Source of the DNA: a virus
Virus record (IMG/VR): IMGVR_UViG_3300042549_001642
Coordinates: 1 to 35,333 of that record
Strand: one strand, 5' to 3'
DNA: 35,333 nt
The position numbers and the translations under genes were made by a program. Of this stretch, positions 1 through 35,333 are shown piece after piece (positions within the stretch are counted from its first letter, which is position 1; each line of letters begins with the position of its first letter). The notes under the pieces were generated by a model. That model was not told where the DNA came from. It was given only the letters and a program-made list of their open reading frames with translations, and searched no databases.

Positions 1-99
1 GGCTCGTTGCCGTTATACGATGCAATCACTGCTTCGTACGATGATGACCTTGTACGATACGATGGACAAGAAGAATTCGGATACATACTTGCTTTCTAA
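1..99 (+). CDS. Minor tail protein, 3' end only (allele A copy)
   Basis: This is the C-terminal 32 codons of the minor tail gene that is complete at 32232-33539. It encodes the acidic, Tyr/Asp-rich end (YDAITASYDDDLVRYDGQ) and stops with TAA at 97-99. From base 7 onward it is identical to the complete copy. Bases 4 and 6 differ, turning the Ala of the full copy into Ser. The gene runs off the window's left edge, so this is a contig-end fragment and not a broken gene. The first tail-fibre gene follows 8 bases later, as it does after the complete copy. Confidence 0.9.
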   Translation, partial: GSLPLYDAITASYDDDLVRYDGQEEFGYILAF

Positions 100-107
100 G
101 GTGAACA

Positions 108-533
108 ATGCCAACTAATTACCCAACATCGTTGGATAACTTTACGAACCCAACGGCTAACGATTCTCTTAACCTGCCTTCACATTCAACGCAACACGCA
201 AACGCTAATGATGCTATTGAAGCCATTGAAGCAAAACTTGGACTTGGCGCAAATGTAATGCCTTTTGCATTTAGTGCAGGAACAGTTTCAGTAGTAACTT
301 CAGGTGGTGCAGGTGGCGTTACAGTAACTTATCCAGTTGGCAGATTTACTCAAACTCCAATAGTTACAGTTGCCACAGATAGCCCTGTTTTCTATGATCC
401 TTTTGGAATGGTCACCAGTCCTACCAGTAGTTCATTTATCTTTAGAGTCAGACAAACACAGACAACAGCAGGAGCAACCGTAGTAGGTTATTGGACTGCA
501 ATTCAAATGACATCAGCATCGGCATCGGGATAA
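108..533 (+). CDS. Tail fibre/receptor-binding protein 1, allele A
   Basis: The 141-aa product starts with an anchor module of about 40 residues (PTSLDNFTNPTANDSLN, then LPSHSTQHANANDAIEA) that also opens the protein at 33548-34177. After the anchor the two proteins are unrelated. Here the C-terminal part is a compact Gly/Thr/Val-rich beta domain ending in YWTAIQMTSASASG, a type of ending common in phage fibre tips. A conserved anchor with an exchangeable tip, placed directly after the minor tail protein, fits a host-recognition fibre. That role is inferred from context. AAGGTG a few bases upstream of the ATG is the likely ribosome binding site. Confidence 0.75.
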   Translation: MPTNYPTSLDNFTNPTANDSLNLPSHSTQHANANDAIEAIEAKLGLGANVMPFAFSAGTVSVVTSGGAGGVTVTYPVGRFTQTPIVTVATDSPVFYDPFGMVTSPTSSSFIFRVRQTQTTAGATVVGYWTAIQMTSASASG

Positions 534-535
534 TC

Positions 536-697
536 ATGGCAAACGAAACTTTTGAAATTGGTACATTTCTAGTGGTCTGCAAGAACGCAGACTGTGGAAA
601 CTTTGACATTGAACTAGAAGTGCAAGCCTACATTCCAGCAGACGTATGGTGTGGTGGTTGCTCTACCCAAATAACTGACATTCAATCAGTAAACTAA
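536..697 (+). CDS. Small four-cysteine (zinc-ribbon-like) protein in fibre cassette A
   Basis: The 53-aa product starts at the ATG two bases after the previous stop; an earlier in-frame ATG at 491 would overlap the fibre gene by 43 bases and is less likely. Four cysteines (VCKNADCGNF near the N-terminus, WCGGCS near the C-terminus) form a CX4C...CX2C pattern suited to one zinc ion. The same position in cassette B holds an unrelated 39-aa protein, so this gene travels with the fibre allele. Function unknown; a fold-stabilising or chaperone role for the neighbouring fibres would be speculation. Confidence 0.65.
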   Translation: MANETFEIGTFLVVCKNADCGNFDIELEVQAYIPADVWCGGCSTQITDIQSVN

Positions 698-723
698 GAA
701 CAGAACTTTAGGAGTAAAACAAA

Positions 724-1443
724 ATGGCTGGTGCTGGTAAAAAGACATTCACAGCAGGTGAAGTATTAACTGCTAGTGATGTGAACACATACCTAATGGA
801 GCAATCCGTTATGTATTTTGCAGGAACGGCTGCACGCGCATCTGCTATTCCTACACCTTCAACAGGTATGACTACCTACATTGGTGCAACTGGCACTGCG
901 AGTATTCCACAGTTAGAAACTTACACAGGTTCAGCGTGGCAGACACCTTATGGAATGACTTTGGTTGCAAACGTAACAACAAGTGCTGCAACATCTGTGC
1001 AAATCAACAACTGCTTCACTTCCGCATTTGAGAATTATTTAATTTTAATTACTAATTTTAACGCCACAGGTTCTATAAATCCTATTCTTCGACTTTCATC
1101 ATCTGGCACAGTTGACCCAACGGCTTCAAATTACGGGAACGTAGGGTCAGAACAATCATATGCAAACGCTGGTTTTGTTACTTTTGCAAATAATGGAACT
1201 GTAAACTATTGGCCAGTTGGCAGGTTTGACCTTGGTGGGGCTGGTGCTTGTATGGCAATAAATATATTTAGTCCACAAATAGCCCAAAGGACTTTTATGC
1301 AAACAGTTTTTGGTGATTTTGTTACCTACGGTTCTGGTGGTGGCATTAACAAAAGCACTACTCAATTCGATGGTTTTCAATTTAGCGTGCAAGGTACAGC
1401 GTTCACTAGCAATATTCGAGTCTACGGAATGAGAAATTCATAA
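724..1443 (+). CDS. Tail fibre protein 2, allele A (conserved N-terminus, variable tip)
   Basis: The 239-aa product begins with MAGAGKKTFTAGEVLTASDV and continues through AARASAIPTPSTGM and an ETYTGSAWQTPYG segment, an N-terminal module I recognise as widespread in actinophage fibre and minor tail proteins. Residues 1 to about 80 are nearly identical to the protein at 34306-35052. Beyond that only a scaffold is shared (CFTSAFENYLILITNF here), with a beta-rich tip of different sequence. The conserved part should attach to the virion and the tip should contact the host; this is inference. AGGAG lies just upstream of the ATG. It overlaps the next gene by one base (TAATG). Confidence 0.8.
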   Translation: MAGAGKKTFTAGEVLTASDVNTYLMEQSVMYFAGTAARASAIPTPSTGMTTYIGATGTASIPQLETYTGSAWQTPYGMTLVANVTTSAATSVQINNCFTSAFENYLILITNFNATGSINPILRLSSSGTVDPTASNYGNVGSEQSYANAGFVTFANNGTVNYWPVGRFDLGGAGACMAINIFSPQIAQRTFMQTVFGDFVTYGSGGGINKSTTQFDGFQFSVQGTAFTSNIRVYGMRNS

Positions 1444-1658
1444 TGAGCGAAACATTAAAAGCAATGATTGTTGATGCTGCAACAGGTGAAATAACAGAAC
1501 GCCCACATACAGCAGATGAACTGGCTGAACAAGCAGAAATTCAAGCAAACTTTCAAGCACGACAAGCAGAAGCAGATGCCAAAGTTGCAGCGCGTATATC
1601 TGCACTTGCTAAGTTGGCTGCCCTTGGTCTAACTGCTGACGAAGTGGCTGCACTGTAA
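1443..1658 (+). CDS. Small fibre-associated protein, allele A (assembly-chaperone-like)
   Basis: The 71-aa product has an N-terminal strand-rich part (IVDAATGEITERPHTADEL), an Ala/Gln/Glu-rich helix, and the ending ALAKLAALGLTADEVAAL. Short proteins with a TGE-x-ERP-x-T start and a KLAALGLT end often follow tail-fibre genes in phages, where fibre-assembly chaperones are expected, so that is the likely role. The last 20 codons are identical in cassette B (35052-35267), while the first two thirds differ. The start overlaps the preceding stop (TAATG), which suggests translational coupling. Confidence 0.6.
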   Translation: MSETLKAMIVDAATGEITERPHTADELAEQAEIQANFQARQAEADAKVAARISALAKLAALGLTADEVAAL

Positions 1659-1699
1659 ACTTGTTCTAACACCCTGCGCTTAAATCTTTTGGAGTTACA

Positions 1700-1942
1700 T
1701 TGAAGCGCAAGCAAGTCAAAGACATAATTACTCGTATGGTCGCAGTTGTTGTGGCATCTGTTATGGGAACAATCGGTGCTGGTTCTATTATCGGTGTTGA
1801 GTTGTGGAAGTCAGCAAGCATGGCTGCGATTCTTGGTGTGGCTATTGTGCTTGAAGGTCTGGCGCGTGCCTACATTGCAGACGGCAAACTTGATGAAACA
1901 GAAATCAACGATGCTTTCGGTAAGGCTAACGGCAAGAAATAA
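1700..1942 (+). CDS. Holin-like small membrane protein
   Basis: The 80-aa product starts at TTG, 5 bases after GGAG. It has a basic N-terminus (KRKQVKDIITR) and two hydrophobic stretches (about 13-32 and 37-58). The second, with ELWKSASMAAILGVAIVLEG, resembles the second half of r1t-type holins. A short acidic tail, DGKLDETEINDAF, looks like an EF-hand loop and is common in actinophage holin-like proteins. It opens the lysis module, two genes ahead of further membrane and peptidase genes. A membrane-pore role for endolysin release is inferred. Its first 25 bases recur at the right end of the window. Confidence 0.7.
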   Translation: MKRKQVKDIITRMVAVVVASVMGTIGAGSIIGVELWKSASMAAILGVAIVLEGLARAYIADGKLDETEINDAFGKANGKK

Positions 1943-3250
1943 ATGAAGCGCACAAGGGTTTTCCTAACTGCGCTATTGGTCGGAGCATTTCTGTTCGCAA
2001 CACCTGTTCAAGCAGATGTTGTTTGCAACACTTACACCTACAGAGGTGACGATGATTCAGCATTTGCTGCCAATCTGCCTTTTACTTTGTCACTGGGATC
2101 AACTGAGTACAGCAACGTGTTCATCTCAACAAATGGCACGCTGACTTTTGGCAGGCCTGATGGAACTTTCCACGACTATCCGCAAACACCATCAGTGTCA
2201 GTTGCAGGTTATGACTGGGTAACTTTCGGTGAAGGTGCGTATCTGTCATTCGGTTCAACTGCAAATACTTTTTGTGCTGAGTGGAGTGTTCGACCTTACC
2301 CACAATCAACTGGCGATCTAACTCAGATCAGACTTGTGATCAATCGCAGTGATGATGGTGGATGGCATGGAGAAGTTGTCACCTTTGGATGGACACCTGC
2401 AAATTTAAGACGGGGTATCCGCTTTGAACAGGGTCAGCCTGTAGTCCCAATTGCTGCTGCGTTCGATGTCAATGGTGGTGTGCCTATCGAAGTGCCACCA
2501 GCACCAGTTCCAACTTCATTTGATGAGCCGCCAGTTCTACCTACGCCAGTACCGACACAAACTCCAGAGCCTGAGCCGACTGCAAGTGTTGAACCAACTC
2601 TGAACCCAGAGCCAACGCCAACGCCAACGCCTGAGGCAACGCAAATTGCATCGCCTGAACCAACGCCAATAGATACACCACTGCCAACGCCAGAACCCAT
2701 AATCGAAGCCACACAAACACCAGAGTCTACTGCAACTGTCGAACCTGTTCCTGAACCAACACCAATCGCACCAGATTTGGAGCCAGATTTAGTGCCAGAA
2801 CCTGAGCCAACTATTGAGCCTGAACCGATTGATGAACCGACTGTTGAAGAACTGACGCAAGAAGTTATTGATGACGCTCTTGCTGATGGCGTACTTACAG
2901 ATGATGAACGTGAACTTGTTGCTGATGCGTTGCTTGCTGAGTTCATAGGTGAAGCAATTACATTCGAAGCCTTGCAAGAATCGGGTCTTGATTACGAGGA
3001 CTTGCCACCAGAAACTCCAGTGACTTTGGAAAATGGAGTTGTCTTGTCTGCTGAAGTTGCAGATGCTTTGGAAATCTTTGAGTCAGGCGCGGAAGTTCTA
3101 GCAACGATTTTCAAAAACCCTGCCAAAGCACTCAAGGCATTGGTCAGCATTGGTGCAGACATGACAGAAGAAGAACGTGAAGTTTCACAAAATACAGTTG
3201 TTGCAGCAGTTGTTGTAACGCAGGTTGCACAAGTTAGGAAAATGAAATGA
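1943..3250 (+). CDS. Secreted protein: nidogen-like beta domain, Pro/Glu/Thr linker, C-terminal helical domain
   Basis: The 435-aa product starts one base after the previous stop. Residues 1-24 are a clear Sec signal peptide with predicted cleavage after VQA. Residues 25 to about 183 form a beta-rich domain with two Cys (28 and 111) and a YSNVFISTNGTLTFG motif, as seen in nidogen-type extracellular domains. Residues 185 to about 297 are a low-complexity linker of repeated PEPTP/TPEP units. The acidic, helical remainder carries two DGxLTDDE/MTEEE stretches. The protein should be exported or displayed from the infected cell. Its place between lysis genes suggests envelope work, perhaps lysis, adhesion or blocking of superinfection; none is shown. 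No catalytic motif is visible. Confidence 0.75.
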   Translation: MKRTRVFLTALLVGAFLFATPVQADVVCNTYTYRGDDDSAFAANLPFTLSLGSTEYSNVFISTNGTLTFGRPDGTFHDYPQTPSVSVAGYDWVTFGEGAYLSFGSTANTFCAEWSVRPYPQSTGDLTQIRLVINRSDDGGWHGEVVTFGWTPANLRRGIRFEQGQPVVPIAAAFDVNGGVPIEVPPAPVPTSFDEPPVLPTPVPTQTPEPEPTASVEPTLNPEPTPTPTPEATQIASPEPTPIDTPLPTPEPIIEATQTPESTATVEPVPEPTPIAPDLEPDLVPEPEPTIEPEPIDEPTVEELTQEVIDDALADGVLTDDERELVADALLAEFIGEAITFEALQESGLDYEDLPPETPVTLENGVVLSAEVADALEIFESGAEVLATIFKNPAKALKALVSIGADMTEEEREVSQNTVVAAVVVTQVAQVRKMK

Positions 3251-8285: not shown

Positions 8286-8624
8286 ATGATTAAAGACTGC
8301 GACCATGAAGAATGGCTTGAGTCTGGCATGTGCTTAATTTGTTCGCCGCCAGATGGATGGCAACATCATGCAGTCTGCATTGATCATGATCCTGACACTT
8401 GTTTTCCTGAGAACGATGAGCCACATCTGTTTGCAGTTGCAAAGAAGATGTGCGAGGAATGTCCTGTGATTGGGTTCTGCCTTGAGATTGGGCTTGATGA
8501 CAAGTGGGGAGTCTGGGGCGGATTGGATCCAATCGAGCGACAGAAGTTGATCAGGTCTGGCAAGGTTCCAAGTGAACGTCTAGAAAAACGCCGATTCTTA
8601 AGGGTTTACGCCTACACAACTTAG
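8286..8624 (+). CDS. WhiB-family iron-sulfur transcription regulator 1
   Basis: The 112-aa product has the four WhiB cluster ligands (Cys31, Cys56, Cys59, Cys65, in CEECPVIGFC), the turn GVWGG (75-79) and the DPIERQKLIR stretch that follows it. WhiB proteins hold a 4Fe-4S cluster and bind the primary sigma factor to alter promoter choice. The N-terminus adds three cysteines (5, 16, 19), which is unusual and might make a second metal site. The gene appears to be leaderless. It probably redirects host transcription after infection; that role is inferred. WhiB genes are essentially confined to Actinobacteria and their phages, so this is a main clue to the host. Confidence 0.9.
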   Translation: MIKDCDHEEWLESGMCLICSPPDGWQHHAVCIDHDPDTCFPENDEPHLFAVAKKMCEECPVIGFCLEIGLDDKWGVWGGLDPIERQKLIRSGKVPSERLEKRRFLRVYAYTT

Positions 8625-9518: not shown

Positions 9519-9724
9519 TGTGGCATGACGATCCAGCAACTGACAAACAGATCAAGATGATCACGTTCTTGTTGGACAAGATAAACATCAAAGACGCAAA
9601 GCATCGCAGAAGTTTGATTGTGGCTTTAGGCAATAACACCTTCAACGTAAAAGACATCACAGTTGGACAAGCCAACACTGTCATCTGGAAACTTCAATAC
9701 ATAACAGCAAAGGAAATGTCATGA
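9518..9724 (+). CDS. Small helical protein upstream of the annealing protein
   Basis: The 68-aa product starts at the ATG overlapping the previous stop. The PATDKQIKMITFLLDKI start followed by VGQANTVIWKLQYI resembles the three-helix motif (xATxKQxxxLxxL ... ASxxIxxL) often found near recombination and single-strand-binding genes and in DUF3072-like proteins. It is coupled by ATGA to the Rad52-like gene, which suggests a recombination accessory role. Confidence 0.55.
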   Translation: MWHDDPATDKQIKMITFLLDKINIKDAKHRRSLIVALGNNTFNVKDITVGQANTVIWKLQYITAKEMS

Positions 9725-10284
9725 AACAAGAACAACAAGATGCGCTTCGTGCGCCATTCCCTAAAGAACACATTCAGAAACTTCCTACAGGTGGATTGCA
9801 ACTTGATTATGTTTCACACGCATGGGTGACTGATCGATTGCTTCAGGTCGATCCTTCATGGACATGGGAGCCTGTCGGTTTCGATGCTGATGGTCTGCCA
9901 AAGTTTGATGAGAATGGCGGGCTGTGGATCAAACTGACTGTGTGTGGCGTGACTCGCTACGGCTATGGAGAACCACAAGGTCGTGACAAGTTCGATCAAC
10001 GCAAAGGCGCAATTGGGAATGCCATCCGCGTGGCTGCACTCAGATTTGGAGTGGCTCTTGATCTGTGGGCTAAGGAAGCACCAGTGACAGAAGCAGCACC
10101 AGTTGCAAAGCCAAAGGCAGCATCAACAGCAGCAATGAAGATGATTGAACGCATTAAGAACTCAGGCAGTTTGATTGAACTGTCAGAGATAGTGCCATTG
10201 ATTCAAGGTGGCGAATTCACGGATGATGAGAAGCGCAACATGCGTCTGATCTTCAACAACAAGAAAACGGAGTTAGGCGCATGA
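9721..10284 (+). CDS. Rad52/Rad22-like single-strand annealing protein
   Basis: The 187-aa product has the core of the family: LQLDYVSHAWVTDRLLQVDP, WTWEPVG, GLWIKLTVCGVTRYGYGE, then KGAIGNAIRVAALRFGVALD in the last core helix. An Ala/Lys/Pro linker and a small helical C-terminal domain follow. The family binds single-stranded DNA and anneals complementary strands, which supports recombination-dependent replication and gene exchange between phages. RusA and SSB lie close by. Such an enzyme could drive the exchange seen in the fibre cassettes; that link is inference. It is coupled on both sides by ATGA overlaps. Confidence 0.8.
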   Translation: MKQEQQDALRAPFPKEHIQKLPTGGLQLDYVSHAWVTDRLLQVDPSWTWEPVGFDADGLPKFDENGGLWIKLTVCGVTRYGYGEPQGRDKFDQRKGAIGNAIRVAALRFGVALDLWAKEAPVTEAAPVAKPKAASTAAMKMIERIKNSGSLIELSEIVPLIQGGEFTDDEKRNMRLIFNNKKTELGA

Positions 10285-10424: not shown

Positions 10425-10788
10425 TCAGGCTTACTTGCCCTATGGCGGCACATCAGGTTGGTCAGGCTCATCAACCAGTTACGAGCGAGCATTGCGAAAC
10501 GATGAATCAGGAGTGACATCAAAGAACCAGATGTTGTTCATGTCAGATTTGTTGTTCAGCGGCGAATATGGAATGACTTCAAAGGAATGGGGAGAAATCC
10601 ACAACCTAGAACATCAGACATACTCATCAATTCCATCAGTGCTTCATGAAGGTGGCTTTGTGGAACGTCTTGCAAAAAGACGGGGCAGGCATGAAATTTA
10701 CGTTCTGCCTGAGTACGTCAATGGTCGTGAGACAAAACCGCATGGCAGAAAGAAGAAGCCTTGTTCAAACTGTGGACACACAGAATGA
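10417..10788 (+). CDS. Winged-helix protein with C-terminal zinc knuckle
   Basis: The 123-aa product has a winged-helix pattern (YGMTSKEWGEIHNLEHQTYS, VLHEGGFVERLAKRRGRHEI, YVLPEYV). This resembles the small phage DNA-binding proteins in which a type-specific helix is followed by a basic wing. The tail RKKKPCSNCGHTE adds a CX2C. It lies between recombination genes, overlaps both neighbours and may bind DNA, as an early regulator or a recombination partner. Confidence 0.6.
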   Translation: MSDQAYLPYGGTSGWSGSSTSYERALRNDESGVTSKNQMLFMSDLLFSGEYGMTSKEWGEIHNLEHQTYSSIPSVLHEGGFVERLAKRRGRHEIYVLPEYVNGRETKPHGRKKKPCSNCGHTE

Positions 10789-11204
10789 TCAGTTACTTCG
10801 TAGAAGGTGAACCTGCACCACAAGGATCAAAGACTGGAAAAGTCGTCAATGGTCGTGTGGTCATGTGGGAAGCATCAGCAAAGGTGAAGCCTTGGAGAAC
10901 TGCAGTGGCAGCACAAACGCAGGAATACCGCGCTTCACGCTGGCCGCATCCTGAGCAGTACACAATCACTAGACCAGTTGAGATAACACTTGTGTTTCAC
11001 TTACCAAAACCAAAGTCAGTCAAGCGCGACTTCCCTAGTGTGAAGCCTGACTTGGACAAACTTGTTCGCAGCACATTCGATGGACTGACAACAGGTGGAC
11101 TGTACGAAGATGATGCACTTGTCATCGCACTGAGCGCATCAAAGATTTACGCAACTGATCGGATTGGTTGCCAGATTATTGTTAGCGAGGAATTAAATGT
11201 TTGA
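10785..11204 (+). CDS. RusA-family Holliday junction resolvase
   Basis: The 139-aa product starts in the previous stop (ATGA). RusA features are the EGEPAPQGSK start, the acidic active-site stretch KPDLDKLVRSTFDGL (Asp89, Asp91, Asp99) and GLYEDDALV (Asp109, Asp110), followed by Lys120. RusA enzymes cut four-way junctions as dimers using Mg2+. In phages they resolve recombination and replication intermediates before packaging. The neighbouring annealing protein and SSB make a compact recombination set. Confidence 0.9.
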   Translation: MISYFVEGEPAPQGSKTGKVVNGRVVMWEASAKVKPWRTAVAAQTQEYRASRWPHPEQYTITRPVEITLVFHLPKPKSVKRDFPSVKPDLDKLVRSTFDGLTTGGLYEDDALVIALSASKIYATDRIGCQIIVSEELNV

Positions 11205-11499
11205 TACTGAACAAGCAAACTGCCTTGGAGTTGATCCTGAATTGTTCTTTCCAACAGGAGCAATCAACCCGCAAACAGAAAAGACATTGCGACGCATCTG
11301 TGTCAATTGCTCTGTCTGGCGTGACTGCTATGACTATGCGATGAACTATCGCGTTGATGGCTTTTGGGCTGGCACAACGTACCAACACAGAGAAGCACTG
11401 AGAAAAGAATTGGGCATCACGGCAAAGCGCATTGATGAACAGTATGAGAAAGAAATCAAAAACAATCGCGCTGAACAGCGCATGAGAGAAGCAGGATAA
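11197..11499 (+). CDS. WhiB-family iron-sulfur transcription regulator 2
   Basis: The 100-aa product overlaps the RusA gene by 8 bases. The WhiB ligands are Cys9, Cys35, Cys38 and Cys44 (CVNCSVWRDC). The turn is GFWAGTT instead of GVWGG, followed by HREALRKELG. A long charged helix completes the C-terminus. It differs strongly from WhiB 1 in sequence and regulation, being inside an operon with a GAGG site and not leaderless. Two different WhiB proteins could switch host sigma-factor use at different stages; that is inference. Confidence 0.85.
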   Translation: MFDTEQANCLGVDPELFFPTGAINPQTEKTLRRICVNCSVWRDCYDYAMNYRVDGFWAGTTYQHREALRKELGITAKRIDEQYEKEIKNNRAEQRMREAG

Positions 11500-11503
11500 A
11501 ACA

Positions 11504-11875
11504 ATGGCACTACCAACAATCACAGCAATTGGGAATCTGACATTCGATCCAGATTTCCAAGTCACTGCAAATGGCATCAGCCGTTGCAGACTACGCATCG
11601 CATGCAACGAACGCAAGAAGCAAGACGGCGAATGGGTAGATGGAGAACCAACATTCTTGGATGTGACACTATGGCGCGGGCTGGCAGAAGCAGCAGGCGA
11701 CAACTTCAAGAAAGGTCAGTCGATCATGGTCACTGGCAAACTTAAGGTTCGCAACTATGAAGATAAGAATGGCGCAAAAGCAACAGCAGTTGAGATTGAA
11801 GCCACAGACATTGCAGCAGTGGTCAAGCCTGCTAAGACAGCAGCAGCGGCTCCTACTGAAGACCCTTGGATTTAG
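11504..11875 (+). CDS. ssb: Single-stranded DNA-binding protein
   Basis: The 123-aa product is an OB-fold SSB. Visible elements are ITAIGNLTFDPDFQVTANGI, RCRLRIACNERKK, FLDVTLWRGLAEAAGDNFKK, GQSIMVTGKLKVRNYEDKNG and AVEIEATDIA. A short Ala/Pro linker leads to the tip EDPWI, close to the DDPWF/DDIPF tip that binds replication partners in bacterial SSBs. It coats single strands in replication and recombination, and could work with the Rad52-like protein. It starts 4 bases after the WhiB 2 stop. Confidence 0.9.
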   Translation: MALPTITAIGNLTFDPDFQVTANGISRCRLRIACNERKKQDGEWVDGEPTFLDVTLWRGLAEAAGDNFKKGQSIMVTGKLKVRNYEDKNGAKATAVEIEATDIAAVVKPAKTAAAAPTEDPWI

Positions 11876-22818: not shown

Positions 22819-22848
22819 TTGGGTTTTTGATTATGTTTCATGTACAGT
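22819..22848 (+). promoter_or_regulatory. Promoter candidate for the glycan gene cluster
   Basis: TTGGGT (22819-22824) and TACAGT (22843-22848) are 18 bp apart, close to -35/-10 consensus. They lie between the capsid terminator and the first glycosyltransferase gene, where a promoter is needed if the terminator works. Confidence 0.4.
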
Positions 22849-22872
22849 CAAACGACTGCGACAAGGAGCAAC

Positions 22873-24054
22873 ATGACAAAAGAATCCGGAATGCGAATCG
22901 GCTGGGTGTCCAATGCGCCTTGGGCTGCAACTGGTTATGGAACACAAACAGCACAAGTGACGCAGCGACTCAAAGAGATTGGTCATGACGTTGCCATCTT
23001 CAACAACTATGGTCTTGAAGGTTCCAACAATGACTGGAACGGAATTCCCGTTTATCAACGTGGCGCGGAAATGTATTCAAACGATGTTGTTCCTGCACAC
23101 ATGCATCACTGGTCATCGCAGAATGAAAAGCAATCACACTTCTTAATCACTCTTTACGATGTCTGGGTATTCAAAGGCCCGCGATGGGCTGACTGGAATG
23201 TTGCTTCATGGGTTCCAATTGATCACATTCCAACTCCACCTTCTGTTGCTGCTTGGTGTCGTCAAGACTTCGTGACTCCGATTGCAATGAGTCAGTACGG
23301 GCAAGCAATGTTGGAGAACGTAGGCATTGAATCTTTGTATGTCCCACACGGCATTGAATCTGTGTTCAAGCCGATGAAGCGACACAAGGGAACAACAGGG
23401 CGCGACTTTATCGGAATCAGTGATGACAGATTCGTTGTTGGAATGAACGCAGCCAACAAAGGTGTGTCACCTAATCGAAAAGCATTTGGCGAAAACATTT
23501 TGGCGTTCAGCATGTTCGCGCAAAAACATGATGATGCAATCTTGTACTTGCACACAGATCAACTAGGTGCTTTGGGTGGAATCAAACTCATGGAACTTCT
23601 AAGTGCAGTTGGACTCAAGGAACATCAGTTCAAGTTCATCGATCCGTACCTTTACAGAACTGGGATCGATCAGCAGACGCTTGCCACGATTTACACAGCG
23701 ATGGATGTCATGCTTGCAACTTCTTATGGTGAAGGCTTTGGAATTCCAACCATAGAAGCACAAGCCTGTGGAACTCCTGTGATCGTGTCTGAGTTCGCAG
23801 CATCAACTGAACTTCTTGGAGATGGATGGCTTGTTGATGGGCAGCCACTTTGGGATGCTCCACAGACTGCTTGGTTTCACATGCCATCAGTGCCAAAGAT
23901 TGTTGAGTCACTCGAAGCCGCTTATCAACGTGGTCGTGGTCGATCACAAAAGGCTCAGGATTTTGCAAAGGCTTATCAGGCAGATGCTGTGTTTGAAACG
24001 CACTGGAAGCCAACAATGAAGGTGCTAGAAGCCAAAGCCTTAGAAAGAGCGTAA
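22873..24054 (+). CDS. GT4-type (GT-B) glycosyltransferase
   Basis: The 393-aa product starts at ATG after AAGGAG; an upstream ATG at 22840 overlaps the promoter. The N-terminal half has IGWVSNAPWAATGYGTQTAQ (sugar-acceptor side loop). The C-terminal half has the nucleotide-sugar EX7E motif EGFGIPTIEAQACGTPVI (Glu287, Glu295). GT4 enzymes transfer sugars from activated donors with retention. It is the first of four glycan genes inserted between capsid and connector. Virion-protein glycosylation by phage enzymes is known in mycobacteriophages, so the capsid or fibres are likely acceptors. Modification of host surface glycans is the alternative. Confidence 0.85.
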   Translation: MTKESGMRIGWVSNAPWAATGYGTQTAQVTQRLKEIGHDVAIFNNYGLEGSNNDWNGIPVYQRGAEMYSNDVVPAHMHHWSSQNEKQSHFLITLYDVWVFKGPRWADWNVASWVPIDHIPTPPSVAAWCRQDFVTPIAMSQYGQAMLENVGIESLYVPHGIESVFKPMKRHKGTTGRDFIGISDDRFVVGMNAANKGVSPNRKAFGENILAFSMFAQKHDDAILYLHTDQLGALGGIKLMELLSAVGLKEHQFKFIDPYLYRTGIDQQTLATIYTAMDVMLATSYGEGFGIPTIEAQACGTPVIVSEFAASTELLGDGWLVDGQPLWDAPQTAWFHMPSVPKIVESLEAAYQRGRGRSQKAQDFAKAYQADAVFETHWKPTMKVLEAKALERA

Positions 24055-24057
24055 GGC

Positions 24058-24861
24058 ATGAAAATCGGTTGGTATACGCATCACATCGAGAACATGGTGA
24101 AAGTGGCTGAGAATGCTTCTGAGAGCGTCTCAGGGCTATTCAGAGGGCAGTTCGCAGGCGGGGCAGAAATGTCAGACTACGAATATCGACTTCAAGCACC
24201 TTTGGGTTTTGATATACAGATTGTCAGTCCTGACACATTCGATACACATGACATACACCAATTTGATTCAGTGGTTGTGACTGGGACTGATGCGTTCTCA
24301 GATCAGCAACTCAATAGGCTGAGTGAATACGATCCTTTTGTGTTTGTGCATCATCTGCAAACTCCAAGAGCAGGACTCAATGCTTTGATTCGCGGATCAA
24401 GAATGTTTGTGACTCACACTCCTGCACACATGCGCCGTGAATTAACTTGGTCAAAGCCACGCAGAACTGGTCAGGTTCTTTCGTACTTCGACACAAGCAA
24501 ATGCTACGACCATCTAGACAAGAAACCATTTGCACTTTGGGCTGCTCGCAGTCATCCGCTAAAGGGCAGACTCAAGGCAGAACTTTGGGCAGCACAAGCA
24601 GGTTATGAATTCAAAGCACTGACAGATGTACCGCGTGAACAAGTTCTTGATGCAATGGCAAGATGCGAATGGTTTGTACATTTGCCTTTGGCATTTGAGT
24701 CTGAATGTCGTGCAGTCATGGAAGCAGTTCTTTCAGGTTGCAGGATTCACACGAACGAAAATGTTGGAATTACCAGCGTTGAAGATTGGCAAGATGCAGA
24801 CGCATTGCGCCACATGATTGATAAGGCAGGCGACACATTTTGGAAACTGGTTCAACAATGA
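24058..24861 (+). CDS. Putative glycosyltransferase (GT-B-like)
   Basis: The 267-aa product starts MKIGWYTHHIENMVKVAENA and has PFVFVHHLQTPRAGLNALIR and KKPFALWAARSHPLKGRLKA. An EX7E-like motif appears in ESECRAVMEAVLSGC (Glu214, Glu222), which fits the donor-binding half of GT-B enzymes. It is shorter than usual for the family, with a reduced N-terminal half. It lies 3 bases after the first glycosyltransferase and overlaps the next by ATGA. Substrate unknown. Confidence 0.65.
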   Translation: MKIGWYTHHIENMVKVAENASESVSGLFRGQFAGGAEMSDYEYRLQAPLGFDIQIVSPDTFDTHDIHQFDSVVVTGTDAFSDQQLNRLSEYDPFVFVHHLQTPRAGLNALIRGSRMFVTHTPAHMRRELTWSKPRRTGQVLSYFDTSKCYDHLDKKPFALWAARSHPLKGRLKAELWAAQAGYEFKALTDVPREQVLDAMARCEWFVHLPLAFESECRAVMEAVLSGCRIHTNENVGITSVEDWQDADALRHMIDKAGDTFWKLVQQ

Positions 24862-25532
24862 GAATGCTCACGATTGTTCCCACGCGGGGAAGATGCGAAA
24901 ACGCACTTCGATTGTTCGAAGCGATCAACGCAACTGCTGACTTCACTGAACTGATCTTTGCAATTGATCATGATGATGTTGCTGAGTACAGCGACTTGAT
25001 TCACGCGACTGCAGGAGTCAACAACGTCAAGGTTGTGATCGCTGCTCGCATGGGCATGAACGGCACATTGAATCACTGGGCTAACTGGATGGCTCCTGAT
25101 TATGACTACATCTGTTTCATGGGCGATGATCACCTTCCAATCACTGCAGGCTGGGACACGAAACTTTGTGAAGCAATCGGCAAAGAAGCCGGCATTGCTT
25201 ATGGCAACGATCTGCTGCAAGGCGAGAATCTTCCAACTGCAGTTGTGATGTCTAGCAAAATCATTCGCGCTCTTGGATTTATGTCACCACCAGCACTGAA
25301 GCATTTATTCTTGGACAATTTTTGGCTTGCCATTGGTACTGCATTGGGCAACGTGAACTACTTGCCAGATGTAATCCTTGAGCATCTGCACTACATCAAC
25401 GGCAAAGCAGAACATGATGAGCGATACGCAGCCGTGAACAATTCAGAAATGCACAATGGCGATCAAGCAATCTTTGCTGAATACATGGCTTCAAAGTTTG
25501 CTGACGATGTAGAAAGTGTGAAGGCTTGGTAA
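24858..25532 (+). CDS. GT2-type (GT-A) glycosyltransferase
   Basis: The 224-aa product starts at ATG 24858 in the stop of the previous gene. MRMLTIVPTRGRCENALRLF is the nucleotide-binding start of GT-A enzymes. YICFMGDDH (Asp90-Asp91-His92) is the DXD-like metal motif that holds the donor sugar diphosphate. LFLDNFWLAIGTALG and a HNGDQAIF end follow. It likely adds one sugar in series with its neighbours. It is coupled to the epimerase by TAATG. Confidence 0.8.
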   Translation: MRMLTIVPTRGRCENALRLFEAINATADFTELIFAIDHDDVAEYSDLIHATAGVNNVKVVIAARMGMNGTLNHWANWMAPDYDYICFMGDDHLPITAGWDTKLCEAIGKEAGIAYGNDLLQGENLPTAVVMSSKIIRALGFMSPPALKHLFLDNFWLAIGTALGNVNYLPDVILEHLHYINGKAEHDERYAAVNNSEMHNGDQAIFAEYMASKFADDVESVKAW

Positions 25533-26398
25533 TGAAGATTCTGATTACTGGTCACAAAGGATTTGTTGGTCGTCACTTTGTTGCAGCATTACCTGACAGC
25601 GAGATCACAGGCATTGATCTAAAAGATGGACATGACTGCCGCGACTACTTCAAGAACAACAAGACCAAGTTCGATGTTGTCATTCATCTGGCAGCAATTG
25701 TTGGTGGTCGCGCAACTATCGAAGGCGAGCCATTAAGCGTCGCAACTGACTTGAGCATTGATGCTGAGTTCTTCAACTGGGTGCATGAAACAAAACCAAC
25801 TCATGTTGTCTACTTCTCATCTTCTGCTGCTTACCCAATCGAACTGCAGAAACCAGAACACAGATACCGTCTTGCAGAATCTGACATCAGACTTGATGCA
25901 GTGAGCAATCCTGACTTGACTTATGGATGGGCGAAACTAACGGGGGAGTATCTGTCACAGTTCATAACTGATTCAAAGATGTATGTGTTCAGACCTTTCA
26001 GTGGTTATGGATCAGATCAAGATGCTGACTATCCGTTCCCATCTTTCATTGATCGCGCATTGCGTAAGGCTGATCCTTTCGATGTCTGGGGAGATGGCGA
26101 ACAGGTACGCGACTTCATTCACATCGATGACATTGTTCAGGCAGTTCTCTGGCATGTTCAAACTGGCTACGACGGCACATGGAATCTGTGTTCAGGTATC
26201 GCTACAAGTTTCAACGACCTTGCAGAAATGATTTGTGAAGAAGCGGGATACAAGCCAGTGATCAATCACATTCGAGATGCACCTGTTGGTGTTCAGTATC
26301 GCGTGGGAAATCCTTATGTGTCACACCACTACTTCAAACCACAGATCAGTCTGCGTGAAGGAATTCGCAAAGCATTGCAGGAGCGAAAAACCCAATAA
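25532..26398 (+). CDS. NAD-dependent sugar epimerase/dehydratase (SDR)
   Basis: The 288-aa product has the Rossmann GHKGFVG (7-13), VVIHLAAIVGG, VYFSSSAAYP and the catalytic YGWAK (Tyr131, Lys135), then FRPFSGYGSD and WGDGEQVRDFIHIDDIVQA. This is an extended SDR acting on nucleotide sugars (GDP-fucose synthase or UDP-hexose epimerase type). It would supply the donor for the adjacent transferases, which makes the cluster a self-contained sugar-modification unit. Exact sugar unknown. Confidence 0.85.
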   Translation: MKILITGHKGFVGRHFVAALPDSEITGIDLKDGHDCRDYFKNNKTKFDVVIHLAAIVGGRATIEGEPLSVATDLSIDAEFFNWVHETKPTHVVYFSSSAAYPIELQKPEHRYRLAESDIRLDAVSNPDLTYGWAKLTGEYLSQFITDSKMYVFRPFSGYGSDQDADYPFPSFIDRALRKADPFDVWGDGEQVRDFIHIDDIVQAVLWHVQTGYDGTWNLCSGIATSFNDLAEMICEEAGYKPVINHIRDAPVGVQYRVGNPYVSHHYFKPQISLREGIRKALQERKTQ

Positions 26399-32231: not shown

Positions 32232-33539
32232 ATGTCGAACCCAGAAACAAAGGTGTACATTGCCTTCGATCTCACTGCGTCAGGTGGGTCTTTCTTTGCT
32301 CTTGATGATTCAGTGCGCGGCGTTCTTGATAGCCAGTATGTTCTTGGTGGTGATGTTCTGGTTGATGTTACTGATTACGTCGCTAGTGCTTCTATTTCTA
32401 GAGGTAAGTCACGCGAACTAGATCGCTTCACTGCAGGTAACGCATCAGTTCTTTTGCACAACGATGATCGCACCTTTGATCCGTTCTACGAAGATAGTCC
32501 TTACCGTTCCCAGATTCTGCCGCGCAAGCAAGTGGTTATTGAAACCAACGGCATTCGCCAATTCACTGGTTACATTGATGACTGGGACTTGACGTATGAA
32601 CTAGGTGGAAAGTCTTACGCATCGATTAGTTGCGTTGATGGTTTCTTGCAGTTGTCTGCAACTCAATTGGCAGCCTTTACAAACATCGTTCAAAAATCTG
32701 GCGAGCGCATTGAAACAATTCTGAACAGACCAGAAGTTGCATGGCCTGCTGGTGAACGTGACATTGATACTGGTCAAGAAACATTGCAAGCAGATGCTGT
32801 TACTGAGAACACAAATGCACTGCAGTATTTGCAAGTCGTGGAATCAACTGAGCCTGCATCATTATTCATGTCAAAGTCTGGTGCAGTAACTTTCAGAGAT
32901 CGCATCACAGTGCCACCACTTGTGGACACACTTATCTTTGCTGATGATGGTCGTGCTGAGTCTGTTGGATACAACAACATTCAGGTAATCTATGGTTCAG
33001 AGAATTTATACAACCGTGTGATTGTCACAAGAGAAGGTGGAAGTCCACAGGTTGCTGACAATCTTTCATCTCAAGACATCTACGGCGTTCAGACTTTATC
33101 CCTAGACGGGTTGCTTTTAGTTGATGATGCTGACTCACTTATTTTGGCTGACTACTTGCTTGGTCGTTACGATCAGCCAGAACTACGTTTCTCAAGTCTG
33201 CAAGTAACCCTGCACGATAAGAACACAGCAGATCAGGCTGAACTTCTAGCAGTTGAGATTCAAGACGTTATCAAGATCGTGTTTACCCCTAACGGAATAC
33301 CACCAGCCATCGAGCGTTACGGCTTAGTTACAGGCATCAAGCACACCATTGGGATTGACACTCATACCGTCACGTTCGACTTTGGTTCGGTTCAGGACTT
33401 CCCTATTGTTCTGGATGATCCGATCTACGGCAGACTTGGTGGCGCATTGCCGTTATACGATGCAATCACTGCTTCGTACGATGATGACCTTGTACGATAC
33501 GATGGACAAGAAGAATTCGGATACATACTTGCTTTCTAA
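32232..33539 (+). CDS. Minor tail protein (baseplate/Dit-Tal-like)
   Basis: The 435-aa product follows the tape measure directly. The segment VDVTDYVASASISRGKSREL, DRFTAGNASVLLHNDDRTFD and RKQVVIETNGIRQFTGYIDD are typical of actinophage distal tail/minor tail proteins with a Dit-like fold. A second beta domain continues to the acidic tail with LYDAITASYDDD. The tail probably connects to the fibre proteins encoded just after. The last 93 bases of the gene, through the TAA, recur at the window start (7-99). Confidence 0.8.
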   Translation: MSNPETKVYIAFDLTASGGSFFALDDSVRGVLDSQYVLGGDVLVDVTDYVASASISRGKSRELDRFTAGNASVLLHNDDRTFDPFYEDSPYRSQILPRKQVVIETNGIRQFTGYIDDWDLTYELGGKSYASISCVDGFLQLSATQLAAFTNIVQKSGERIETILNRPEVAWPAGERDIDTGQETLQADAVTENTNALQYLQVVESTEPASLFMSKSGAVTFRDRITVPPLVDTLIFADDGRAESVGYNNIQVIYGSENLYNRVIVTREGGSPQVADNLSSQDIYGVQTLSLDGLLLVDDADSLILADYLLGRYDQPELRFSSLQVTLHDKNTADQAELLAVEIQDVIKIVFTPNGIPPAIERYGLVTGIKHTIGIDTHTVTFDFGSVQDFPIVLDDPIYGRLGGALPLYDAITASYDDDLVRYDGQEEFGYILAF

Positions 33540-33560
33540 GGTGAACAATGCCAACTAATT
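33447..33560. repeat. 114-bp block identical to window bases 7-120
   Basis: The block covers the last codons of the minor tail gene and the first of the fibre gene. It is the left shared anchor of the two fibre cassettes (offset 33440). Sequence diverges on both sides: bases 4 and 6 of the window differ before it, and the fibre genes diverge after it. Confidence 0.95.
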
Positions 33561-34177
33561 TTCCAACTAGTGTGGACAACTTTACGAATCCAACTGCCAA
33601 TGATTCGCTTAACCTGCCCTCACATTCAACGCAACACGCAAACGCAAACGATGCTATTGAAGCCGTTGAAGATTACTTGCTTAATGGTGCTGGTCGCAGT
33701 GGTCTACTTTTAGTCAAAACACAAACGATTGGAACTGGAGTATCTAGCGTTGTTGTAAGTGATGCTTTTAGTTCTACATATGAAAACTATAAAATTTTAG
33801 TTTCTAATGGTGCTTCATCTGCTAATCCTGAAATTCTATTTAGTTTTAATGGTGGAGCAAATCAATATAATGGTGGTTTTATTTTCAAACCATTTTCTAG
33901 TACCTCAATAACGGGAACAATACTAAGCAGTGGATCGTCTTGGAGCGTAGGCTTTTCACAACCTAGTGGAATCTCAGTAAACGTTGAAATTGGTTCACCA
34001 TTTTTGACAAAGGTTTCTACTTATTGCATAAGTTCATCTGTAAACAACACAGGTGGAAGTGTTATTTTTGCTAATGGCTTCTACAATGACACAACAAGTT
34101 TCACTGGATTTACTTTGACAACAAGCACAGGAACTTTAACAGGTGGAACAATTGCTGTTTATGGATATAGGAAGTAA
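33548..34177 (+). CDS. Tail fibre/receptor-binding protein 1, allele B
   Basis: The 209-aa product shares its first 40 or so residues with the allele A protein (108-533), with many synonymous changes. Residues from about 55 form a different tip (VKTQTIGTGVSSVVVSDAFS, STYENYKILVSNGASSANPE, then a SFTGFTLTTSTGTLTGG end). The F-S-S-x-Y-ENY-x-I scaffold of this tip resembles those in the second fibre genes of both cassettes, so fibre tips may be exchanged between genes as well as alleles. Receptor binding is inferred. Confidence 0.75.
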   Translation: MPTNFPTSVDNFTNPTANDSLNLPSHSTQHANANDAIEAVEDYLLNGAGRSGLLLVKTQTIGTGVSSVVVSDAFSSTYENYKILVSNGASSANPEILFSFNGGANQYNGGFIFKPFSSTSITGTILSSGSSWSVGFSQPSGISVNVEIGSPFLTKVSTYCISSSVNNTGGSVIFANGFYNDTTSFTGFTLTTSTGTLTGGTIAVYGYRK

Positions 34178-34179
34178 AA

Positions 34180-34299
34180 ATGAAACCGCTTATTCAAATT
34201 GACGATACTGTTCGAGAAATGACAGATGAAGAAATCGCACAGATTGAAGCGATTCAATCATCACACGTTCCATTAAACTTAGAAACAACACAGGAGTAA
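34180..34299 (+). CDS. 39-aa small protein of fibre cassette B
   Basis: A short frame (MKPLIQIDDTVREMTDEEIA, then QIEAIQSSHVPLNLETTQE) starts two bases after the fibre stop. VREMTDEEIAQIE resembles the short motif (R-x-MTxEE-x-A) seen in small fibre-assembly or baseplate proteins. Cassette A has an unrelated four-Cys protein in this place. Short, so moderate certainty. Confidence 0.55.
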   Translation: MKPLIQIDDTVREMTDEEIAQIEAIQSSHVPLNLETTQE

Positions 34300-34305
34300 A
34301 ACAAA

Positions 34306-35052
34306 ATGGCTGGTGCTGGTAAAAAGACATTCACAGCAGGTGAAGTATTAACTGCTAGTGATGTGAACACATACCTAATGGAGCAATCCGTTATGGTCTT
34401 TGGTGGTACGGCTGCACGCGCATCTGCTATTCCTACACCTTCAACAGGTATGACTTCCTACATTGGTGTTACTGGTACTGCGACTATTCCACAGATTGAA
34501 ACTTACACAGGTTCAGCGTGGCAGACACCTTATGGTTTGACGTTGGTTGCAACTGGAACAATCGGTTCTGGTGTAACAACTTTCAATATGGACAATGTTT
34601 TCACTTCTGCATTTAGAAATTACCAAATTGTAATTAACGGCGCACAAACTGCAACCATTGACGGTTATTTAATGCAGTTGCGCGGTGCTGGAACCACTCT
34701 TGGTGGTACAGGCTACTTTTACTCTGGTATTGAAACACAAGCAAGTGGTTCAACAATTACTCAGAGATTACTAAATGGTGGTGCTAACTGGCGTATTGGT
34801 ATTAGTAGTGGAACGAATGCTGCAAATTCATACAATTTCAATGTTGATGTTTTTCAACCTGCTATCGCTACTGCAACTAACATTTTTGCACGCGCTACAA
34901 CTCGTGACTCTGGTGCATTGGGCAATGTTTATCAAACAATGGCAGGCAGCAATTCAAGTGCGGTTGCTTATGATGGATTCACTTTGTCAATGTCTGGCGC
35001 GGTAACAATGACTGGTGGAACAGTGCAAGTTTATGGAATAAGGACAACATAA
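34306..35052 (+). CDS. Tail fibre protein 2, allele B
   Basis: The 248-aa product repeats the N-terminal module of the allele A protein at 724-1443 almost exactly, including over 100 identical bases spanning the ribosome site and start. After SAWQTPYGLTLVATGT it diverges to a tip with VFTSAFRNYQIVINGAQTAT, YSGIETQASGSTITQRLLNG and AMAGSNSSAVAYDGFTLSMS-like strands. The same role as allele A with a different specificity is inferred. Confidence 0.8.
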   Translation: MAGAGKKTFTAGEVLTASDVNTYLMEQSVMVFGGTAARASAIPTPSTGMTSYIGVTGTATIPQIETYTGSAWQTPYGLTLVATGTIGSGVTTFNMDNVFTSAFRNYQIVINGAQTATIDGYLMQLRGAGTTLGGTGYFYSGIETQASGSTITQRLLNGGANWRIGISSGTNAANSYNFNVDVFQPAIATATNIFARATTRDSGALGNVYQTMAGSNSSAVAYDGFTLSMSGAVTMTGGTVQVYGIRTT

Positions 35053-35267
35053 TGAGCGAAGTTTTAATTGCACAAATTGTTAATGCTGCAACTGGCGAAA
35101 GCATAGAACGACCTTTGACAGATGCTGAAATTGCAGATCTTGAAATTCAAAAGGCAGAACACGCAATACAAAAGACAGAAGCAGAAGCCAAAGTTGCAGC
35201 GCGTGAATCTGCACTTGCTAAGTTGGCTGCCCTTGGTCTAACTGCTGACGAAGTGGCTGCACTGTAA
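35052..35267 (+). CDS. Small fibre-associated protein, allele B
   Basis: The 71-aa product is the counterpart of the protein at 1443-1658 with the same length. The start (IVNAATGESIERPLTDAEIA) and the middle helix (LEIQKAEHAIQKTEAEAKVA) differ from allele A, while ALAKLAALGLTADEVAAL is identical. This matches an assembly chaperone whose N-terminal part contacts the variable fibre. It overlaps the previous stop by TAATG. Confidence 0.6.
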   Translation: MSEVLIAQIVNAATGESIERPLTDAEIADLEIQKAEHAIQKTEAEAKVAARESALAKLAALGLTADEVAAL

Positions 35268-35333
35268 ACTTGTTCTAACACCCTGCGCTTAAATCTTTTG
35301 GAGTTACATTGAAGCGCAAGCAAGTCAAAGACA
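35208..35333. repeat. 126-bp block identical to window bases 1599-1724
   Basis: It covers the end of the small fibre-associated gene, the short gap and the first bases of the holin-like gene, with offset 33609. It is the right shared anchor of the two fibre cassettes and marks the return to the start of the window. Confidence 0.95.
35309..35333 (+). CDS. Holin-like protein, 5' end only (second copy)
   Basis: The TTG start and first eight codons of the gene at 1700-1942 recur exactly here and run off the right edge. This is the contig-end counterpart of the fragment at 1-99, not a truncated gene. Confidence 0.85.

Follow-up and report, generated by a model that had tools for sequence, protein, structure and literature searches.

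Two putative host-recognition cassettes at the ends of an actinophage contig, read as alleles of a single locus

Introduction

Does a phage contig with two putative tail-fibre cassettes come from a genome that carries both, or from a single locus of which two versions were caught? The question is raised by an IMG/VR virus record of 35333 nt, analysed over its whole length and called the window here. It has one cassette version at each end, in the same orientation; the version at the left end is called allele A and that at the right end allele B.

Hypervariable host-recognition loci have been described as metaviromic islands in marine phages, where the gene content includes tail fibre, lectin-like, tail-fibre-assembly and XkdW-type genes (PMC3909814). 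A tail-fibre island was also found in phages E7 and F5 of Planktophila, a member of the freshwater Nanopelagicales (PMC10202952). The Alteromonas phages A5, V22 and P24 share modules made of a tail fibre and its cognate chaperone (PMC10579305).

The contig and its two cassettes

Exact matching recovered the 114 nt repeat reported by the initial annotation, bases 7-120 being equal to 33447-33560; beyond its left edge the copies mismatch at bases 4 and 6. A second repeat had been placed at 1599-1724 and 35208-35333; the repeat is real, but its extent had to be corrected to 1598-1724 and 35207-35333, that is 127 rather than 126 nt, and it extends to the last base of the contig. Chance is excluded by a wide margin for both. 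The repeat spacings, 33440 and 33609 nt, give the two lengths that had been proposed for a genome closed with allele A or with allele B. Between the end repeats the cassettes have more exact blocks in the same order, at 180-205, 710-813, 826-873 and 916-953 in the coordinates of A. The features of the locus are as follows.

1..120, + strand: left anchor, A copy; final codons of the tail gene and start of the first cassette gene (7-120 repeated exactly at 33447-33560; mismatches at bases 4 and 6 give TCG, the Ser haplotype)
108..533, + strand: A slot 1, predicted receptor-binding protein; stem 1 (first ~44 codons) and gamma tip with an H-type-lectin-like predicted fold (from sequence, Pfam and fold model)
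536..697, + strand: A slot 1 accessory; small protein of 53 aa with four Cys (C..C...CGGC), the type that goes with gamma tips
705..813, + strand: middle anchor, A copy; covers the leader and the beginning of stem 3 (exact 104-109 nt common to phages of other species)
724..1443, + strand: A slot 2, predicted receptor-binding protein; stem 3 and alpha tip
1443..1658, + strand: A slot 2 accessory, 71 aa, g4 type
1598..1724, + strand: right anchor, A copy; 3' end of g4, intergenic sequence and start of the holin-like gene (all 127 nt recur at 35207-35333)
1700..1942, + strand: holin-like gene, conserved; right flank of the locus
9721..10284, + strand: Sak-type single-strand annealing protein, candidate recombinase at the anchors
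32232..33539, + strand: tail gene, homologue of the phiPsal1 "putative tail fiber"; left flank of the locus
33447..33618, + strand: left anchor, copy of the core and allele B (exact runs of 130-163 nt common to seven contigs of other species)
33548..34177, + strand: B slot 1, predicted receptor-binding protein; stem 1 and beta tip
34180..34299, + strand: B slot 1 accessory, 39 aa, of the IQIDDxVREMTDEE type that goes with beta tips
34274..34418, + strand: middle anchor, B copy (exact 145 nt with L029; 127 nt, 34292-34418, with L018)
34306..35052, + strand: B slot 2, predicted receptor-binding protein; stem 3 and alpha-like tip
35052..35267, + strand: B slot 2 accessory, 71 aa, g4 type
35207..35333, + strand: right anchor, B copy; its 127 nt reach the last base of the contig and are interpreted as a vertex of a k=127 assembly graph

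The description of two versions of one four-gene cassette was correct, with all four genes present in both. Cassette A, of 1551 nt, has its genes at 108-533, 536-697, 724-1443 and 1443-1658, and cassette B, of 1720 nt, at 33548-34177, 34180-34299, 34306-35052 and 35052-35267. Protein identity between A and B is 45% for the first gene (in its N-terminal part), 49% for the third and 65% for the fourth. The stems are almost identical and the tips have diverged, and the second genes, four-Cys in A and MTDEE in B, are unrelated; protein comparison thus agrees with the tip and second-gene differences first noted.

Probably one locus with two alleles

Relatives were gathered from IMG/VR with three queries, the tail gene, the slot-2 protein and the holin-like gene. 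The tail gene and the holin-like gene are both present on 29 relative contigs, which are distinct and in some cases distant, and each has a single cassette. Between the flanks, stem 1 and stem 3 each occur at most once in all 29, never two of either. Single cassettes are found in L014 and L022 as well. The cassette itself is unlike in nearly every relative and the flanks are conserved. Relatives with the most complete genomes measure 33.7-34.9 kb, and the two ends of one of them (G006, 33722 nt) overlap exactly by 118 nt within the terminase region. The G006 genome therefore closes elsewhere, with a single cassette.

The right-hand repeat has the form of an assembly product. The 127-nt match begins directly after the last mismatch between A and B and halts with the contig itself, and a k=127 graph would place its first shared vertex at just this point. 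Exactly 127 nt at a contig end is also common to three pairs of relatives from the same sample: 3300028025_001185/_001544, 3300034073_000582/_002687 and 3300035670_000574/_000547. Members of the first pair are 80-84% (~83%) identical over aligned stretches, which shows that phages of different species can have a vertex of this kind in common. The assembler of the window presumably ran with k=127, as judged from the 127-nt signature rather than from a header; the G006 overlap, 118 nt and not 127, counts against this. The shared run on the left, 114 nt, is shorter than 127, so the left flank of A was not merged with the core and the contig begins there. As a stand-in for reduced read recruitment over the region, contig ends were counted in close relatives: 20 of 29 end within the length of tail gene plus cassette downstream of the tail-gene start, and 1 of 29 within the same length upstream. 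Bubbles of this kind are known in phage assembly graphs (PMC10563150). The assembler, on a k=127 graph, would have come in through allele A, passed once round the core and gone out through allele B, halting on the first 127-mer common to B and A. The contig would then be one pass of a ~33.5-kb genome plus a second copy of the host-recognition locus, from a sample with at least two alleles.

A and B are thus very probably alleles of one hypervariable locus in a circularly closing ~33.5-kb genome, joined by the assembler, and not a duplicated cassette. This preference for alleles over tandem duplication, already expressed in the initial annotation, is upheld by the 29 single-cassette relatives, the closure of G006 and the 127-nt end signature. 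It also means that "two fibre cassettes" on a contig can arise from a single locus.

The anchors and the origin of allele A

The repeats lie in segments that are conserved well beyond this phage. The tail gene is ~70-90% identical to that of close relatives over most of its length and 94-98% near its end. At 4-fold degenerate sites it is ~45% identical in the middle of the gene but 86% over the final 35 codons, so the conservation of the tail end is not at the protein level only. Identity in the right flank likewise climbs toward the locus. Exact runs in common with other species are longest at the left anchor (up to 163 nt), followed by the middle anchor (145) and the right anchor (103), and the three anchors hold most of the longest runs of this kind. 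The exact 114-mer is also present in two IMG/VR phages that are ~76-77% identical to the window over the longest aligned stretches. Anchor conservation could partly reflect constraint at the DNA or RNA level instead of recombination.

Allele A starts with GGCTCG, the Ser haplotype present in L006, L018 and L029. The core reads GGCGCA, and the final A is found in none of the aligned relatives, being private to the core. Since the anchors are exact across species and A has a differing haplotype, the repeats do not place A in an otherwise identical genome. The claim that the alleles sit in otherwise the same genome is therefore not supported as it stood; the repeats belong to anchors common to ~76%-identical phages, and A has TCG where the core has GCA. 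Because the anchors are common to several species, exact end repeats of more than 100 nt are, as a warning, no proof of same-strain origin in these phages.

Whether allele A belongs to a near-identical strain or to a more distant co-existing relative is about evenly balanced. If A came from a different co-existing species, of about 75-85% identity, the contig would be a cross-species chimera joined at an anchor and would be uninformative on diversity within a population. The probability of this form of the allele reading falls a little short of even. In its favour, the anchors are exact across species, and the first bases of A have the TCG haplotype of other phages where the core has its private GCA. 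L022, another species over most of its genome, has 147 nt exact with the left end of A, and the 127-mer common to the ~83%-identical phages of one sample is a precedent. Against it, the differing bases outside the shared run are only two, A passes into the core without a break on the contig, possibly backed by paired reads, and neither A tip was found on any other contig. The IMG/VR searches gave no relative of the A tips, and for the B tips no close copy was found among the searched sequences, the best being 49% and 47%. Neither allele could therefore be placed in another genome by these searches.

Duplication and programmed switching

A real duplication would put both cassettes in one genome: a linear molecule could have them in long terminal repeats that are not identical, or tail end, cassette and holin start could be copied in tandem. 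The same contig does hold both cassettes in the same orientation, and the tail-to-holin interval in distant relatives can reach 4.9 kb. Yet those longer intervals still hold one stem 1 and one stem 3, with two copies in 0 of 29; G006 circularises elsewhere with one cassette; the exact match of 127 nt at the contig end bears the mark of the assembler; and a duplication leaves the haplotype mismatch at bases 4 and 6 without reason. Duplication is therefore improbable.

A programmed switch, in which an invertible or diversity-generating cassette yields A and B from a single clone, is barely credible: conserved stems with variable tips are the typical output of such systems, but the window lacks both inverted repeats and a template/variable repeat pair, the 20 main proteins scanned (a set that covers part of the small proteins) include no integrase, invertase or reverse transcriptase, and point diversification cannot explain tips that differ along their whole length or second genes that are non-homologous.

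A two-slot structure with paired tips and accessories

Two slots make up the locus, and both follow one plan: a conserved stem carries a divergent tip, and a small accessory gene comes next. The tips fall into classes (alpha, beta, gamma and others), and the accessory tracks the tip class in either slot. Allele A has gamma with four-Cys, followed by alpha with g4; allele B has beta with IQIDD, followed by an alpha-like tip with g4.

For 29 of 32 tips, the nearest-neighbour tip from another contig comes with a matching accessory type; 10,000 shuffles gave a mean of 11 and at most 24. The accessory types had been set by motif before the pairing test, although the pattern had already been noticed in part of the same loci. 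When the comparison is restricted to the other slot, the accessory type matches in 24 of 28 (null 9.7). A separate set was fetched by the beta tip alone. In it an IQIDD...MTxEE accessory follows in 47 of 63 loci and a g4 or four-Cys accessory in 0 of 63; several of the remaining 16 have, by eye, a weaker form of the IQIDD motif.

In freshwater actinophages, either stem may take any tip class that is given its own mini-accessory (36-40 aa IQIDDxVREMT, 71-aa g4, or four-Cys), with the three near-identical cross-species anchors as standard joints and the phage species of one water body sharing a tip library. This general reading stands at an even chance. If true, it is a simple grammar for spotting host-recognition swaps in freshwater actinophages, and it yields uncharacterised mini-proteins as candidate tip-specific folding partners.

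Pfam and PHROG searches with the accessories gave only non-significant matches, with no recognised family and no tail-assembly or chaperone match. By likeness to the Alteromonas phage modules (PMC10579305), a chaperone-like role may be suggested for them.

Two further observations concern the accessories. The beta tip and an IQIDDxVRxMTxxE mini-gene occur together in many phages with quite different stems (L175-L254), far wider than this phage group. At L116:4790-5023 a fused accessory, with an IQIDD...MTDEE start and a g4-type end, comes after a beta-type tip.

Predicted fold of the tips

The gamma tip of A slot 1 is predicted to form a six-stranded β-sandwich, with strands between residues 53 and 134. 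The fold resembles those of Helix pomatia agglutinin, AP22 gp53, the pyocin R1 fibre and phage tailspike domains, with matches among both solved and predicted structures. Foldseek matches include 2ccv (E 4e-3) and 4mtm (E 3e-2), with probability 1.00; the matches to the PDB are weak (E about 1e-3 to 1e-2) and come from a partial model with mean pLDDT 69.6. The predicted fold is thus like that of H-type lectin and gp53-like fibre tips (H_lectin PF09458, Gp53-like_C PF21882), and similar folds are predicted in actinophage proteins of the Microbacterium phages Efeko and Floof. Unlike H_lectin members, the window protein itself (108-530) matches no Pfam family at E<=1, H_lectin included; one member of its family matches Pfam H_lectin at 6e-5. 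A fold search with the beta tip of B slot 1 gave no convincing PDB match, and there is no fold support for the other tips. The locus comes after the tape measure and tail genes. Taken with the predicted fold of the gamma tip, this position makes receptor binding a likely role of the cassette.

Probable exchange at the anchors

Homologous exchange at the three anchors (tail-gene end and stem 1, stem 3 start, g4 end and holin start) is the simplest and probably the correct mechanism. Related phages of one water body would in this way trade a single slot or the two together. The phage has a recombination gene set consisting of Sak (9721-10284), a RusA resolvase (10761-11204) and an SSB (11504-11875), and the swaps would plausibly run through its own Sak, the presumed recombinase. 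Swapped tip-plus-accessory modules would alter the surface glycan or receptor that is bound and hence host recognition, so that an effect on host range may be expected.

Comparison with known systems

The locus belongs with the known metaviromic host-recognition islands and is a clear example of known tail-tip exchange, with an unusually clear modular structure. As in the marine islands (PMC3909814) and in E7 and F5 (PMC10202952), host-recognition genes vary among co-existing phages around a conserved core, here too in a freshwater actinophage context. Those islands were demonstrated by read recruitment, whereas here two alleles were caught on one contig. What the present locus adds to them is the resolved two-slot structure of stem, tip and accessory with exact anchors; the likeness to E7 and F5 is at the level of the island. 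As in the modules of A5, V22 and P24 (PMC10579305), a predicted receptor-binding gene keeps the gene downstream of it as a companion when it passes from one phage to another, even a distant relative. The accessories of those phages are chaperones of 176-239 aa, with DUF4376 in two of three, whereas the accessories here are about 36-78 aa and of three dissimilar types.

The nearest cultured relative found is Pontimonas phage phiPsal1 (MG835450), with 57% identity in the terminase, 41% in the tail gene and 53% over 73 residues of stem 3. Its slot-2-like gene has only the stem in common with the window, and other genes come after it.

The phage group and neighbouring genes

Two genes for WhiB-like transcription factors (8286-8624 and 11197-11499), together with the relationship to phiPsal1, identify the phage as an actinophage. 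A freshwater origin is suggested by the phage group rather than by the sample label. A search of isolate genomes with the tail gene gave no match, so no prophage or host was identified.

Genes for a glycosyltransferase and an NAD-dependent epimerase, and two more whose products match nothing in Pfam, lie between the capsid and tail genes at 22840-26398 of the window; they possibly serve in glycan modification of the virion or the host surface. In L014, L022, L042 and L043 the conserved holin-like gene is absent after the cassette, and in L022 and L042 an unrelated short hydrophobic protein (MEQLQIWFATSP...) is in its place; exchange may extend to the lysis side as well. The holin-like gene of the window is directly followed, at 1943-3250, by a Pro/Thr/Glu-rich protein of 435 aa that is poorly conserved in relatives.
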